64,000 nt of DNA from Comamonas sp. 26 (GTDB taxonomy: Bacteria > Pseudomonadota > Gammaproteobacteria > Burkholderiales > Burkholderiaceae_C). Location of the stretch: positions 248,001 through 312,000 of the forward strand of contig NZ_PEFL01000001.1 of assembly GCF_002754475.1 (NCBI RefSeq), written 5' to 3'. The notes beneath the pieces were generated by a model. That model did no database searches. It saw nothing but the letters and a program-made list of their open reading frames with translations, and was not told the origin of the DNA. This document shows positions 22,278 through 26,468 of the stretch, piece after piece; position 1 is the stretch's first letter; every line of letters starts with the position of its first letter. The position numbers and the translations under genes are program-made.

Positions 22278-22994
22278 TCAGTTCTGCGGTCCGGCATTCC
22301 AGAAAGCCTGAATGACACCGGGCATGGCTTCGATCTGTGCCAGCACCTGATCCAGTTCTTCGGCATGCACAGCAGTGGCAAACAGCTCGGCCTCGATTTC
22401 GCTGTTGTGGGGTGGAATGTCGTGTTTCTCGATCGTACGCACCGGGTAGTTGGCCGCCTCCAGTAGCTCCTGCATCTGCTCGCGGACATCGGCCTGTACG
22501 GCTTGCTGGCAGATGGCATAGACGTAGTAGGTCGCCTCGCTGGCATGCTCGGCCACCGGGTGGCGGTTGATGTAGTTGACTATGGGGCGCAGCAAGGTAT
22601 TGCTGGCCAGCACGAACAGGGTGGCGATTCCGGCTTCTGGCAGCATCCCCGCCCCAGCGCAGGCACCGACTGCAGCCGATCCCCAGAGCGTGGCGGCTGT
22701 GTTCAGACCCGTGATATTGGCCCCTTCCTTCATGATGGCACCAGCGCCCAGAAAGCCAACGCCCGAGACCACATAGGAGATCACCCGGGTGGAGCCGTCA
22801 GCCCCCGAGATGCGCATGGCCAGGTCCACGAATACGGCGGCACCTACGGCCACTAACGTGTTGGTGCGCAAACCGGCCGTGCGCTGGCGTATCTGCCGCT
22901 CCAGCCCGATGATGCTGCCGCAGACAAAGGCCACGAGTAGGCACAGCACGGTGTTGAGCGTTGCCAGGAGATTGAAATTTTGCAGAGCTTGCAT
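22278..22994 (-). CDS. MgtC/SapB family membrane protein
   Basis: 238 residues. MgtC-family proteins sit in the inner membrane and in enterobacteria and mycobacteria support growth in low Mg2+ and survival in macrophages, partly by affecting F-ATPase. The N-terminal half has four to five membrane segments with the family motifs GSIIGLERQIRQRTAGLRTN (about 26-45) and GVGFLGAGAIMKEG (about 78-91). The C-terminal half is an ACT-like cytoplasmic domain (YYVYAICQQA...). Upstream on the same strand lie a small MgtE_N-like gene and a long leader with short ORFs, which suggests attenuation-type control. The start codon has no clear Shine-Dalgarno. Confidence 0.92.
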   Translation of the reverse strand: MQALQNFNLLATLNTVLCLLVAFVCGSIIGLERQIRQRTAGLRTNTLVAVGAAVFVDLAMRISGADGSTRVISYVVSGVGFLGAGAIMKEGANITGLNTAATLWGSAAVGACAGAGMLPEAGIATLFVLASNTLLRPIVNYINRHPVAEHASEATYYVYAICQQAVQADVREQMQELLEAANYPVRTIEKHDIPPHNSEIEAELFATAVHAEELDQVLAQIEAMPGVIQAFWNAGPQN

Positions 22995-23175: not shown

Positions 23176-23514
23176 TCACGCCTGCCGCAAAGACCGGCGC
23201 AGACTGCGAAACCAGCTGCGGCGTTTGGCGGAAGGAGTGCTCAGGCTCTGCCATTGCCTTTGCGCATACAGGGGGAGCTGGTTCAGCACGACTTCGCGTT
23301 GCCTGGGCTCCAGCAGAGACAGTGCATCCGCACGCTGGCGGGCCGGGAGCGCGGTAAGCACCGAGGCGAATTCAGCGTGATGCGGGTTTGAGCCCAGATG
23401 GCGAAGCACATCGGCATGGCGCAGCTCCAGGGCGCGAACGACGGCTTTTTGCAGGCCTTGTGAGGCCGTGGTGGTGTGAAAGGGGCGCAGGCTGAGCTGC
23501 AGAAGGCGTTGCAT
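23176..23514 (-). CDS. Small protein resembling an MgtE N-terminal repeat
   Basis: 112 residues, basic at both ends, no membrane segment. AAGGAG is well spaced before the ATG. The centre (about 45-80) reads EFASVLTALPARQRADALSL then a second Leu-Leu/Glu-Pro repeat ending VLNQLP. This resembles the helical MgtE_N superhelix repeats that gate Mg2+ channels, but the match is by eye and short. The C-terminal 20 residues are Arg/Ser-rich. It lies 181 bases before the mgtC-like gene on the same strand, so a role in the same response is inferred. An 8-bp inverted repeat (CAGGTGCA/TGCACCTG) lies in the gap. Confidence 0.6.
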   Translation of the reverse strand: MQRLLQLSLRPFHTTTASQGLQKAVVRALELRHADVLRHLGSNPHHAEFASVLTALPARQRADALSLLEPRQREVVLNQLPLYAQRQWQSLSTPSAKRRSWFRSLRRSLRQA

Positions 23515-23567
23515 GGGCTAACTCCTTGATGGCCTGTGGGCCGGAGCTAGCGCCAGACTTCAGAAAG

Positions 23568-23708
23568 TCATGCGCGACCCGGCCTCGATGGCAAATGGCA
23601 AAACAAAGGCATGTCACGGCCTAGGCCGGCGGACACGCACGCAGCAATGATTGACACCTGCATGCAGGCGGCAGGTGTGCAGCAAGATCGACTTGGGTCG
23701 GGATCCAT
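23568..23708 (-). CDS. Short leader ORF starting Met-Asp-Pro-Asp-Pro
   Basis: 46 codons, preceded by AAAGGA six to seven bases from the ATG. The first five residues, MDPDP, alternate acidic residue and proline. The enterobacterial mgtA leader peptide MgtL begins MEPDP, and that stretch destabilises translating ribosomes in low Mg2+. Here a perfect 8-bp hairpin (23654-23678) starts about ten codons into the ORF. The rest of the peptide is Cys-rich and ends with a basic tail. Its place upstream of an mgtC-like gene makes a regulatory peptide plausible. It could also be a chance ORF. Confidence 0.5.
   Translation of the reverse strand: MDPDPSRSCCTPAACMQVSIIAACVSAGLGRDMPLFCHLPSRPGRA
23654..23678 (-). 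promoter_or_regulatory. Hairpin inside the MDPDP leader ORF
   Basis: Perfect 8-bp inverted repeat ACACCTGC / GCAGGTGT with a 9-base loop, lying downstream of the Asp-Pro codons. It would form if ribosomes leave early. No T-run follows, so it is not a simple terminator. Confidence 0.45.
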
Positions 23709-23773: not shown

Positions 23774-23959
23774 CTACATCAGCCAAAAGCGGCGAATGCG
23801 ATGTGTGGGCCAGTCGGTCCGGGCATCGAGCTCCGCAGTTTGCTGCAGAGCCTTGGGGGTCGTCAGCTGGGTATGTGCTGTCGTTGCATCACGGCGAACG
23901 GGCAGCAAACTGCTCTTGCGGCTAAACCGGCAGATGAAGCGGGTGAGTTGTTGGCGCAT
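23774..23959 (-). CDS. Small basic protein, 61 residues
   Basis: A frame with ATG at 23959 and the strong Shine-Dalgarno AAAGGAGTACGCC. The translation-start region is nearly the same as that of the MDPDP ORF downstream (AAAGGAATACGC). The N-terminal half is Arg/Lys-rich (MRQQLTRFICRFSRKSSLL) and the C-terminus is RIRRFWLM. No known family. It lies inside the mgtC leader and may be a peptide whose translation matters more than its product. The frame is open upstream to 24157, but no start there has a ribosome site. Confidence 0.45.
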   Translation of the reverse strand: MRQQLTRFICRFSRKSSLLPVRRDATTAHTQLTTPKALQQTAELDARTDWPTHRIRRFWLM

Positions 23960-24177: not shown

Positions 24178-24197
24178 GACTCCCGATCCGGGGAGTC
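24178..24197 (-). promoter_or_regulatory. Leader hairpin 1, just after the 21-codon ORF
   Basis: Perfect 7-bp stem GACTCCC / GGGAGTC with a 6-base loop. It begins two bases after the TGA of the short ORF, so a ribosome at the stop codon would cover and open it. No T-run follows. Confidence 0.5.
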
Positions 24198-24199
24198 TG

Positions 24200-24265
24200 T
24201 CAGGCGACCAGCTGCGCAGCCGTTGCGGCGTGCGATAAATCACTGGTTGAACTGGCACTGTCCAC
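24200..24265 (-). CDS. 21-residue leader peptide
   Basis: GTG start with AGGAG seven bases upstream. The predicted transcript would begin about 22 nt before the start codon. The peptide is Ser/Ala/Thr-rich (MDSASSTSDLSH, then Ala/Thr and QLVA). The stop codon lies two bases before a perfect hairpin, the usual layout of a ribosome-controlled leader. There is no single-amino-acid codon run that would point to a tRNA signal. It is too short to assign by homology. Confidence 0.5.
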   Translation of the reverse strand: MDSASSTSDLSHAATAAQLVA

Positions 24266-24294: not shown

Positions 24295-24323
24295 ATTATC
24301 CGCAGAGTGTGGACTAGGGTCAA
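24295..24323 (-). promoter_or_regulatory. Near-consensus sigma-70 promoter for the mgtC leader
   Basis: On the minus strand: -35 TTGACC (24323-24318), 17-base spacer, -10 GATAAT (24300-24295). Each hexamer has one mismatch to consensus. The expected start site is near 24288, directly upstream of the AGGAG and GTG of the 21-codon ORF. Confidence 0.7.
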
Positions 24324-24396: not shown

Positions 24397-26214
24397 TTAC
24401 GTGGGCTCTGCTGCTGGCAATTGTTCAGATCGTGCAGAAAAATCGGTCGCCGTGTGCGCCTGGGCTTGCCAGCGCAGGCTGCCTTGCACAATCAGCGCCT
24501 GCGCGACGTAATAGCTGGCAAGCACCCAGATGGCCGCCCACGGCAGGGGTTGCACAAATCGGTTGATGGCCAGAATGCTGTCACTGACCATGAAAGCGCT
24601 GGCACCCAGCGCAATCAGCAATGCTGAGCGGTCTTGCTGCACCTGATAACGGCCCCAGGCCTGAGCCGCCATCAGCGCAATGACGCTGACATATACCGCC
24701 ACGGGAATGCGCATGGCCGCTGGCAGTCCATGCGTGAAGAGGTAGGCGTACATGCCTGCGCCAATGGCTGCAATCAGCCACAGCGCGTGGCGGCTGGCAA
24801 ACCATGGTGCATCGGTTTTAAACAGGGCGATGTAGCAGGCATGGGCCAGTAAAAAGCTGATCAGGCCGGGAATGAACAGGCCCAGCCTGAACTGTCCGTC
24901 CAGCATCAAAAAGACATCGCCAGCAAGTGAGAAAACAATAGCTACCAGTAGCAGGTAGACGTGTTTTTTGGATGTTCTTTGTATTGAAATCCATGCAGGG
25001 CTGGCGCAAGCCGCTATGCATAAAAGAGCAAAAACCATGGTCGCTGGCTTGAACAGCCAGTGCCATTCACGCAGCCCTAGGGCTGCGGTGGTCGTGGCCA
25101 GTGCACCGCTTTGCAGCATCAGCGCCATCCATGGGCTGATGCGTCCCTGCATGGCAGCGCCCAGAGCCCATTGTCCGGTCAGCAGCACGCCAAACCAGAT
25201 CAGATTGGTGGCTAGCGGCGACTGGTCGGCTTGCCAGAGAAAGACCGCTGTGCCCGTCACCAGTGCCAAGAACTGCAGGCCGGCAAACCAGCGCAGTGGC
25301 CGGCTCATGGGCGGCGCGTAAATGGCGCGGTGGGCATCCAGGTCAAAGGCTGGCTTGGGAAAGCGCTGCACTACATCGGCAGGCCGCCAGCCGGGTGGCT
25401 TGAGCCAGACGCGGGCCTTGTCCAGCCAGTTGCGGGCATGCCAGCTGTCATGCGCCAGTTGGCGGTAGACGGTGGCATTGGCCCACAGCGGGTCCCAGCT
25501 TTGCAGCAGCCCGCGCGTGCCGTAGACGCAGGGCTCTTTGTCATCTTCCTCTTTGAAGGTGCCAAAGAGGCGGTCCCAGATGATGAGAATGCCGCCGTAG
25601 TTTTTGTCCAGATACTGGTCGTTGACGGCATGGTGTACCCGGTGATTGCTGGGCGAACAAAACCAGCGGTCAAACCAGCCCAGCTTCTTGACCTGCTCGG
25701 TATGCACCCAGAACTGGTAGAGCAGATCAATCAAGCCCACCACGGCAAACACCAGGGGCGGCACGCCCGCCAGCGCCATGGGCAGATAGAAAAGCCAGCC
25801 CAGCAACGCGCCCGAGCTGGTCTGGCGCAGCGCGGTAGAGAGATTGTAGGCCTGACTCTGGTGGTGCACGGCGTGTGCTGCCCAGAGTAGGCCCACCTCG
25901 TGGCCCATGCGGTGCAGCCAGTAGTAGCAAAAATCGTAGAACAGCAGGGCCAGCACCCAGCCCGGCAGGCTGAGCCAGAAGGCGTCAGCCTCGATCAGCG
26001 CTACATGGCTGGCGATAAAGGTGTAGATGCCCAGCGTCAAGAGCTTGGTAAAGACCGCGCTGGTCTGGCTCAGCACGCCCAGGTTCAGCGAGCTGAGGGC
26101 ATCGGCCAGCGCGTAGGCGTTGCGCCCGCGTTTGAGGCTGATGACCCATTCCACGGCAATCAGTGCGAAAAAGACCGGGGTGGCCAGAACAATGACTTGG
26201 CTGGGGGTGAGCAT
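24397..26214 (-). CDS. Sterol-desaturase/AGMO-like and YhhN (lysoplasmalogenase-like) fusion
   Basis: 605-residue integral membrane protein. The first ~330 residues are a fatty-acid hydroxylase/sterol desaturase domain with its di-iron histidine boxes HRMGH, AHAVHHQSQ and NHRVHHAVN; this set and the size resemble alkylglycerol monooxygenase. The last ~220 residues match the YhhN/TMEM86 family, with LAGDVFLML, FLLAHACYIALF and GASAFMVSDSILAINRF; members include lysoplasmalogenases that hydrolyse vinyl-ether lipids. The fusion suggests a two-step ether-lipid cleavage enzyme, which is inference. The start at 26214 (MLTPSQ) is preferred over a TTG at 26283. The gene lies upstream of the mgtC leader promoter. 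Confidence 0.85.
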   Translation of the reverse strand: MLTPSQVIVLATPVFFALIAVEWVISLKRGRNAYALADALSSLNLGVLSQTSAVFTKLLTLGIYTFIASHVALIEADAFWLSLPGWVLALLFYDFCYYWLHRMGHEVGLLWAAHAVHHQSQAYNLSTALRQTSSGALLGWLFYLPMALAGVPPLVFAVVGLIDLLYQFWVHTEQVKKLGWFDRWFCSPSNHRVHHAVNDQYLDKNYGGILIIWDRLFGTFKEEDDKEPCVYGTRGLLQSWDPLWANATVYRQLAHDSWHARNWLDKARVWLKPPGWRPADVVQRFPKPAFDLDAHRAIYAPPMSRPLRWFAGLQFLALVTGTAVFLWQADQSPLATNLIWFGVLLTGQWALGAAMQGRISPWMALMLQSGALATTTAALGLREWHWLFKPATMVFALLCIAACASPAWISIQRTSKKHVYLLLVAIVFSLAGDVFLMLDGQFRLGLFIPGLISFLLAHACYIALFKTDAPWFASRHALWLIAAIGAGMYAYLFTHGLPAAMRIPVAVYVSVIALMAAQAWGRYQVQQDRSALLIALGASAFMVSDSILAINRFVQPLPWAAIWVLASYYVAQALIVQGSLRWQAQAHTATDFSARSEQLPAAEPT

Positions 26215-26468
26215 GGCGGCAATTCTGGGGCGCTGGCCTGTGATTGCGGGCTGGCGTGAACCCTGAAAAGCAGGGTATGCCAAGGTGTCTAGGGTGAACC
26301 AGTATTGCTAAGAAAATCCTGTTGTGGCAGCAATTTTTGAGCTCTGGGATAATCGACAGCCTAGTCCATCTGCCGAAGGGGGCGCTCAGTCGTCGCCTCC
26401 GGTTTTGCGGTCATGCTGCGCCACAGATTGCTCTGGGACTGCATCGCCGTCCAACTGCTTGCCTGCCC

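Follow-up and report, generated by a model that had tools for sequence, protein, structure and literature searches.

What is the role of a short reading frame that begins Met-Asp-Pro-Asp-Pro and lies upstream of mgtC in Comamonas sp. 26? The question draws its force from MgtL, the leader peptide of enterobacterial mgtA: low Mg2+ impairs translation of mgtL and switches mgtA on (PMC11552253, in excerpt), while the EPDP of MgtL causes drop-off, and an mgtA fusion is no longer detectably expressed once Glu2 and Asp4 are replaced by Gln and Asn (PMC11282234, in excerpt). Our reading – which on balance we consider the probable one – is that the frame, here called uORF-B, acts as the sensor in a leader-based attenuator for Mg2+ starvation, one that works by Asp-Pro drop-off and opens the next gene. 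Support comes from conservation of the ORF, from its link to magnesium genes, and from 3:4 and 2:3 pairings that covary across the family by computation; the drop-off itself, its dependence on Mg2+ and the sign of control we infer.

The leader ORF and its neighbourhood

The window – the whole stretch of DNA analysed, 64,000 nucleotides – contains the following elements, all on the minus strand and given in order of transcription.

24295..24323, minus strand: sigma-70-like promoter, TTGACC-17-GATAAT, just 5′ of uORF-0 (consensus match)
24200..24265, minus strand: uORF-0, GTG-started, 21 codons, VDSASSTSDLSHAATAAQLVA (VDSAS...) (alignment of relatives)
24178..24197, minus strand: hairpin GACTCCC/GGGAGTC after uORF-0 (read from the sequence)
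23774..23959, minus strand: uORF-A, 61 codons, C-terminal motif LDxxTxWPTHRIR (conservation)
23568..23708, minus strand: uORF-B, the MDPDP leader ORF, 46 codons (ORF list, relatives' loci)
23694..23705, minus strand: Asp-Pro-Asp-Pro codons 2-5 of uORF-B, GAT CCC GAC CCA (sequence and conservation)
23654..23678, minus strand: hairpin ACACCTGC/GCAGGTGT after the DPDP codons, nt +30..+54, 9-nt loop
23542..23555, minus strand: anti-SD arm (region 3), +15..+28 after the first nt of the uORF-B stop
23515..23527, minus strand: SD and spacer of ORF-C (region 4), predicted to pair with 23555..23542
23176..23514, minus strand: ORF-C, a 112-aa helical protein, MgtE N domain-like below the Pfam cut-off
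22278..22994, minus strand: mgtC gene, MgtC and MgtC_SapB_C domains (Pfam MgtC 3.5e-36)

The preliminary description had reported a short MDPDP ORF with a good Shine-Dalgarno sequence (SD), and such an ORF is indeed present, on the minus strand (23708..23568), which had been left unstated. Its start reads AAAGGA-N6-ATG (AAAGGAATACGC-ATG) and its peptide begins MDPDPSRSCCTPAACMQVSII (MDPDPSRSCC...); the whole product, MDPDPSRSCCTPAACMQVSIIAACVSAGLGRDMPLFCHLPSRPGRA, matches no Pfam or NCBIfam family. The perfect 8-bp hairpin (ACACCTGC, 9 nt, GCAGGTGT; shuffle p 0.01) lies within the frame as described, and the 61-codon ORF just upstream does have a similar start context (AAAGGAGTACGCC, 23959..23774). 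As to the position of the ORF 5′ of an MgtC-family gene, the account holds for orientation – uORF-B is upstream of mgtC, on the same strand, at a distance of about 570 nt – but the 112-aa ORF-C (23514..23176) intervenes. The nearest named relative found is Comamonas suwonensis, whose MgtC is 99% identical to that of the window. Further upstream, at 26283..24397 (minus strand), fatty acid hydroxylase and YhhN domains (Pfam) are fused in a single ORF of 628 aa.

ORF-C bears a weak likeness, in profile and predicted fold, to the cytosolic N domain of MgtE, and differs from it in being a separate protein of about 100-130 aa. The Pfam MgtE_N model gave 17.7, 23.8 and 25.1 bits, against a cut-off of 25.9, on three of five ORF-C proteins (best E-value 2.7e-5) and no match on the other two. 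A PDB profile search returned MgtE at 0.0016 with FliG close behind, and the structural model (pLDDT 73) matched four MgtE cytosolic entries with Foldseek probabilities of 0.84-1.00, at E-values of 0.14 or more. In one relative (G012) ORF-C precedes a short MgtE that matches the membrane domain only. A class-wide search for ORF-C (274 genomes) found two same-genus genomes and six weak matches, four of the latter in frames of 457-476 aa.

Two further small ORFs precede uORF-B. The promoter consensus was found once against 0.4 times expected in shuffles; in a ten-row alignment TTGACC stands in nine rows, with GATAAT in six and CACAAT in three. uORF-0 lies where the transcript is predicted to begin. 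The first arm of the GACTCCC/GGGAGTC hairpin that follows could, judging from base complementarity, also pair with the SD of uORF-0. uORF-A, which belongs to no Pfam or NCBIfam family and for which seven near-identical proteins were found, accompanies uORF-B: its C-terminus, W[PT]T[HR]RIR, and MDPDP occurred together within 1.5 kb upstream at 4 of 30 MgtA loci, and neither was found at the other 26. The WPTHRIRSF-like C-terminal stretch of this unannotated small ORF is a possible arrest or regulatory peptide.

Spread of the leader and its link to magnesium genes

In ten of 20 related stretches (MgtC-homologue loci), an MDPDP ORF with its own SD stands ahead of mgtA/mgtC or of a short mgtE. Nine of the ten read MDPDP[SG]RS, the exception being the MDPDPSWRLC of G012, there before the short mgtE; in eight the order is MDPDP ORF, ORF-C, a P-type ATPase of about 916 aa, and mgtC. 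The other ten stretches lack an MDPDP ORF, although G010, which is among them, has MDPSSSWRL in a corresponding position. Four related mgtA-mgtC leaders (G008, G014, G007 and G019), in which an MDPDP ORF was sought and not found, have a related GTG-started uORF of 16 codons, VD[VL]PSCWPxANxPQAR (L045-L047, L050).

At larger scale, a genus-wide pattern scan gave 29 matches in 25 of 53 genomes. The family was scanned, in 399 genomes from 141 genera, with the pattern AGGA-N3..9-ATG-GAN-CCN-GAN-CCN, that is, an SD followed by M[D/E]P[D/E]P; this gave 31 matches in 29 genomes, with matches ahead of magnesium genes in 13 of the 141 genera and any match, chance ones included, in 20. An order-wide draw of 250 genomes yielded only six matches, three of them within the genus. 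Such an ORF is also found at 23 of 69 named MgtC-relative loci (17 MDPDP, 4 MDPAP, 1 MDPVP and 1 MDPEP), and a leader outside the family, MDPEPSCRACLQNTRCLYKINA, occurs in Acinetobacter sp. Marseille-Q1618. Because the leaders are related, these counts are not independent.

An MgtA, MgtC, MgtE or NRAMP gene lies downstream of 22 of the 31 family matches. Another two lie ahead of a CusB/CzcB-like RND adaptor, and one of this pair follows mgtC immediately, mgtA being 6.3 kb further on; two precede ORF-C, and one precedes a secreted-like protein that elsewhere stands ahead of mgtA, these three with no recognised transporter in the stretch examined. The remaining four are plainly chance matches, being starts of unrelated frames (MEPEP, MEPDP and, twice, MDPEP). 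All 26 MDPDP matches fall outside the chance group, and the fifth non-MDPDP match is an MDPEP ORF before ORF-C. These four instances are what speaks for a chance resemblance at our locus as well, a view to which we give practically no credence: the link to magnesium genes and the co-occurrence with uORF-A stand against it, and the comparative data already refute it.

In nine of the 23 named leader loci that were examined more closely, an ORF-C homologue was present in all nine, and an MgtA, MgtE, NRAMP or CorA-like gene lay between the leader ORF and mgtC in eight; the presence of MgtC itself is by construction, since the loci were drawn by MgtC. Assignments were checked on single proteins. 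One MgtA, from among the P-type ATPases of about 916 aa, scores above the NCBIfam equivalog threshold for Mg2+-translocating ATPases, and one MgtE likewise passes its equivalog cut-off. One NRAMP protein fell below every NCBIfam NRAMP cut-off; its closest structure is 7QIA (1.3e-43, versus 8e-12 for the best chain named MntH), an entry that appears in a paper on the EleNRMT magnesium transporter (PMC8806188, in excerpt). The case for CorA is weak: the protein is cut, and its Pfam match (1.7e-4) falls below threshold. Because the ORF precedes MgtA, MgtE, CorA-like, NRAMP and MgtC genes, Mg2+ control is likely, and that the leader belongs to it is a conclusion we hold with high confidence.

Against our reading, the cassette is missing from most MgtA genes: 26 of the 30 loci sampled in the family have none in the 1.5 kb of upstream sequence scanned. 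Neither the genome of the window nor that of its relative G002 has an MgtA at E <= 1e-150. The leader here therefore serves ORF-C and mgtC, and the absence of mgtA from the genome of the window is most simply accounted for by its loss.

Three observations concern leaders in other settings. MDPDP leaders, some with (DP)n repeats, stand directly before CusB/CzcB-like RND adaptor genes at L117, L118, L097, L120 and L091, a placement away from Mg transporters that counts against our reading. In one genome (G160; L085/L157) an MDPEP leader and an ORF-C homologue, with no transporter recognised, lie immediately ahead of trx and rho. Four leaders that lack uORF-0 (L101, L109, L117 and L120) are preceded by a palindrome-like TATACC(A/T)(A/T)GGTATA, a putative regulator site.

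Conservation within the leader

A critical issue is which part of uORF-B has been conserved. Beyond about codon 8-9 the tails are unrelated between lineages in the related stretches compared, and the leaders range from 16 to 58 codons. The start and the SD are conserved, as would be expected were uORF-B to encode a working small protein; we regard that as very improbable, given the lack of conservation after about codon 8, the spread of lengths and the want of any family match.

What is conserved is the beginning. The codons of the motif-found leaders (53) vary synonymously: codon 2 is GAC in 38 and GAT in 15, codon 3 CCC in 43, CCA in 6 and CCG in 4, codon 4 GAC in 38 and GAT in 13 – with GAG and GAA once each – and codon 5 CCT in 28, CCG in 16, CCC in 6 and CCA in 3. 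A search free of the motif was made with 15 nt of uORF-0 in the same 399 genomes. It returned 71 matches in 65 genomes. Of the matches, 23 fall on MDPDP leaders already known; 31 of the remaining 48 were examined and 15 flagged for an SD, one of which (L192) was dropped as spurious, so that 14 were added and the total came to 37 loci. An MDP ORF is present at 28 of the 37. It reads MDPDP in 24 (in one case started by TTG) and MDPVP, MDPVP, MDPAP and MDPAS in the remaining four, so that Asp4 is kept in 24 of 28 and Pro5 in 27 of 28. Asp2-Pro3 is present in all 28, a constancy that is partly circular, since ORFs were recognised by an MD or ME start and one that had lost Asp2 would count as missing. 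At the other nine loci no uORF-B was found; two of these retain only a fragment of mgtA and one reaches the end of its contig.

The preliminary description had asked whether the DPDP codons and the ATG vary freely in relatives; where an MDP ORF is present, they do not. Replacements of Asp4 do occur – among the 23 named loci by Ala (four), Val (one) and Glu (one), and in one member of the genus by Ser – and the second acidic residue may be dispensable in some lineages. In others the motif is extended, as in the MDPDPDPDPDP and MDPDPDPDPDPDP that precede RND genes and the MDPDPEPEPEPEP that precedes mgtE. The suggestion of an independent form of Mg2+-dependent ribosome control thus gains from the gene link and the kept codons, and is weakened by Ala or Val at position 4 in several lineages and by the nine of 37 loci that lack the ORF.

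Because prolines are kept where Asp4 is not, uORF-B could instead sense proline supply (charged tRNA-Pro or EF-P), in the manner of Salmonella mgtP. The starts MDPAP, MDPVPPTLP and MDPVPPPPP, which keep their prolines and lose Asp4, are what such a sensor would predict. Yet Asp2 is found in every recognised ORF (partly by construction), most of the ORFs have no consecutive prolines at their start, and the repeats grow as Asp-Pro or Glu-Pro pairs rather than Pro-Pro. We consider proline sensing unlikely, and retain Asp-Pro drop-off as the preferred reading.

uORF-0 raises a different possibility. It is present in 43 of the 53 leaders (38 distinct copies), and is missing from the RND, CorA-like and short-MgtE leaders. 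Its first 15 nt are nearly invariant across 18 genera, third codon positions included, with codons 2-5 hardly varying even as nucleotides, while the rest drifts. Such invariance is consistent with the RNA itself sensing Mg2+ or another ligand in riboswitch-like fashion, perhaps through the uORF-0 stretch, with the uORFs as passengers; a structured RNA was in fact our first reading of this element, since given up. A translated uORF is the better reading on account of its frame, its stops and indels that are multiples of a codon: 36 of the 38 distinct copies are open for 20-23 codons and three different stops are used (TGA 33, TAA 3, TAG 2). Moreover, 10 of the 53 MDPDP/MDPEP leaders have no uORF-0, and the Rfam covariance models (M-box, Mg sensor, mgtA-type leader) gave no match, only two sub-threshold chance matches in one scan. 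RNA-based sensing of this kind strikes us as quite unlikely, more so than proline sensing; a leader read by translating ribosomes fits better.

Predicted RNA pairings and a candidate switch

If the ribosome is the sensor, what might the output be? A next ORF was called in 45 of the 53 leaders, and in 39 of the 53 it starts 40-63 nt past the uORF-B stop. Family-wide, the SD of this next ORF has a mean predicted pairing of 0.72, versus 0.59 with the upstream part shuffled, and the arm predicted to cover it lies mostly at +11..+30 after the stop. Examples of the arms (3:4) are GGTTTCTCC/GGAGAAACC, GGTGTCTCC/GGAGATACC, GGGCTCCGG/CCGGAGCCC and GGTCTCCG/CGGAGACC. When arms were exchanged between 18 rough cluster representatives, own partners paired at -19.45 and foreign ones at -13.69 kcal/mol, and none of 5000 permutations did as well. 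RNAalifold, run on pooled intergenic alignments, found no structure whether all 32 or a group of 14 were used (0.0 kcal/mol in each case), probably because the arms slide.

A competing pairing (2:3) joins the last 45 nt of uORF-B to the intergenic anti-SD stretch. In the swap test it gave -24.04 versus -20.20 kcal/mol, again with 0 of 5000 permutations as good; against shuffled uORF-B ends, p was below 0.05 in 12 of 39 leaders, below 0.2 in 29 and above 0.8 in one. With uORF-B uncovered, modelled SD accessibility rose in 16 of 39, fell in 2 and was unchanged in 21. The last 45 nt of uORF-B contain an SD-like GGAG or GAGG in 27 of 53 leaders, where base shuffling predicts 12.3; its position relative to the stop is frequently -17/-16 or -20/-19. 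In the window itself the 3:4 duplex is predicted at -17.8 kcal/mol, yet SD pairing is 0.64 against a shuffled mean of 0.61, the 2:3 pairing is no better than shuffled (p 0.54), and modelled SD accessibility is 0.33 in all states.

The hairpin after the DPDP codons is likely, on the sequences compared, a feature of the family. In 16 of 32 clusters it outdoes shuffled sequence at p<0.05, and in 15 of 32 it starts at +17..+20, with sequences unlike one another (TTGTAGA/TCTACAA in Acinetobacter); a fixed-window swap test was negative (1475 of 5000).

We propose the following. Ribosomes would initiate on uORF-B and, in many leaders, run their leading edge into the hairpin as they decode Asp-Pro-Asp-Pro. 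With ample Mg2+, uORF-B would be completed and region 2 covered, so that region 3 could pair with region 4 and the next gene would be shut. In low Mg2+, ribosomes carrying the acidic/proline nascent chain would fall apart at codons 2-5; drop-off would free region 2 to pair with region 3, and the SD of ORF-C or of the transporter would open.

A Mg2+-linked leader might equally be imagined with a different output, namely Rho-dependent termination of transcription as in MgtL. MgtL and corL of E. coli and Salmonella act through Rho (PMC11552253, PMC11282234, both in excerpt) and offer a precedent; moreover, the one site in the leader that resembles an intrinsic terminator is weak (the scanned stretch gave 2, with 1.2 expected), the SD-occlusion signal is weak in the window, and the two outputs can coexist. 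Against this must be set the covarying hairpin that is predicted, family-wide, to cover the next ORF's SD. Termination by Rho in place of SD occlusion is in our estimation a serious but rather unlikely alternative, and SD occlusion remains the output that we predict.

How, then, does the leader relate to known systems? The likeness to MgtL noted in the preliminary description stands for the acidic-Pro-Asp-Pro at codons 2-5, but does not extend to homology of the whole peptide or leader, for the tail differs and Rfam finds nothing. The shared Met-acidic-Pro-Asp-Pro start (Asp for Glu at codon 2 in uORF-B) covers what in MgtL is the destabilising part, its acidic/Pro codons 2-5 (PMC8934632, PMC11282234 and PMC11552253, in excerpt). 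mgtA is also led by the ORF in many relatives here, whereas in the window there are only ORF-C and mgtC. The tail of uORF-B is unlike the MgtL sequence as quoted in the excerpted text of PMC8934632 and is variable between relatives; uORF-B further precedes mgtE, NRAMP, CorA-like and mgtC genes, and does so within a chain of uORFs; and the output predicted here is SD occlusion and not Rho, the comparison of leaders at the RNA level being by Rfam only. The switch was probably assembled separately from the gut-bacterial one that it resembles. Tandem leader ORFs have been described for Salmonella mgtCBR, where an mgtC operon is likewise preceded by a pair of small ORFs, mgtM and mgtP (PMC3641672, PMC8092293, in excerpt); the likeness is drawn from their description. 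In the open-access literature, a scope outside which most subscription papers fall, we found no description of the present leader.

A broader proposal, on which we are evenly divided, is that a cassette of up to three tandem uORFs (VDSAS, WPTHRIR and MDPDP), often accompanied by the free-standing MgtE-N-like protein, places the genes of MgtC and of mutually unrelated Mg2+ transporters, namely MgtA, MgtE, NRMT-type NRAMP and CorA-like ones, under one translation-based Mg2+ switch in the Comamonadaceae and their neighbours, its Asp-Pro drop-off sensor having arisen separately from MgtL and, in some lineages, been extended to MDPDPDPDPDP. Were this so, sensing Mg2+ through ribosomes destabilised by Asp-Pro codons would have been used more than once in evolution – not an enterobacterial oddity – and been placed before several types of transporter; some of an environmental family's Mg2+ regulon could be predicted, and a function suggested for the split-off MgtE-N-like protein and for two small ORFs that are unannotated. 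The natural variants (MDPDP, MDPEP, MDPAP, MDPVP and MDPDPDPDPDP) provide material with which to measure which features of a nascent chain make ribosomes fall apart.

The closest analogy at the level of RNA is with mgtQ of Salmonella mgtCBRU, where a leader ORF with Asp2 and Glu5 frees the mgtB ribosome-binding site (RBS) by drop-off and a switch between 2:3 and 3:4 stems (PMC8092293, in excerpt). Both have early acidic codons; drop-off and, on the family-wide predictions, the 1:2 + 3:4 versus 2:3 alternative stems at the next RBS may be further likenesses. They differ in that mgtQ has 8 codons in Salmonella and lies between mgtC and mgtB in Enterobacterales (same excerpt), whereas uORF-B has 16-58 codons and stands 5′ of whole operons. 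The leader would then combine the trigger of MgtL with, family-wide, the RNA logic of mgtQ. At one locus (L095, in G209) an ORF of 16 codons, MDPDPCSSGSAAARQS, sits some 25 nt downstream of an NRAMP gene, with an OprB porin following, an intergenic placement that recalls mgtQ.
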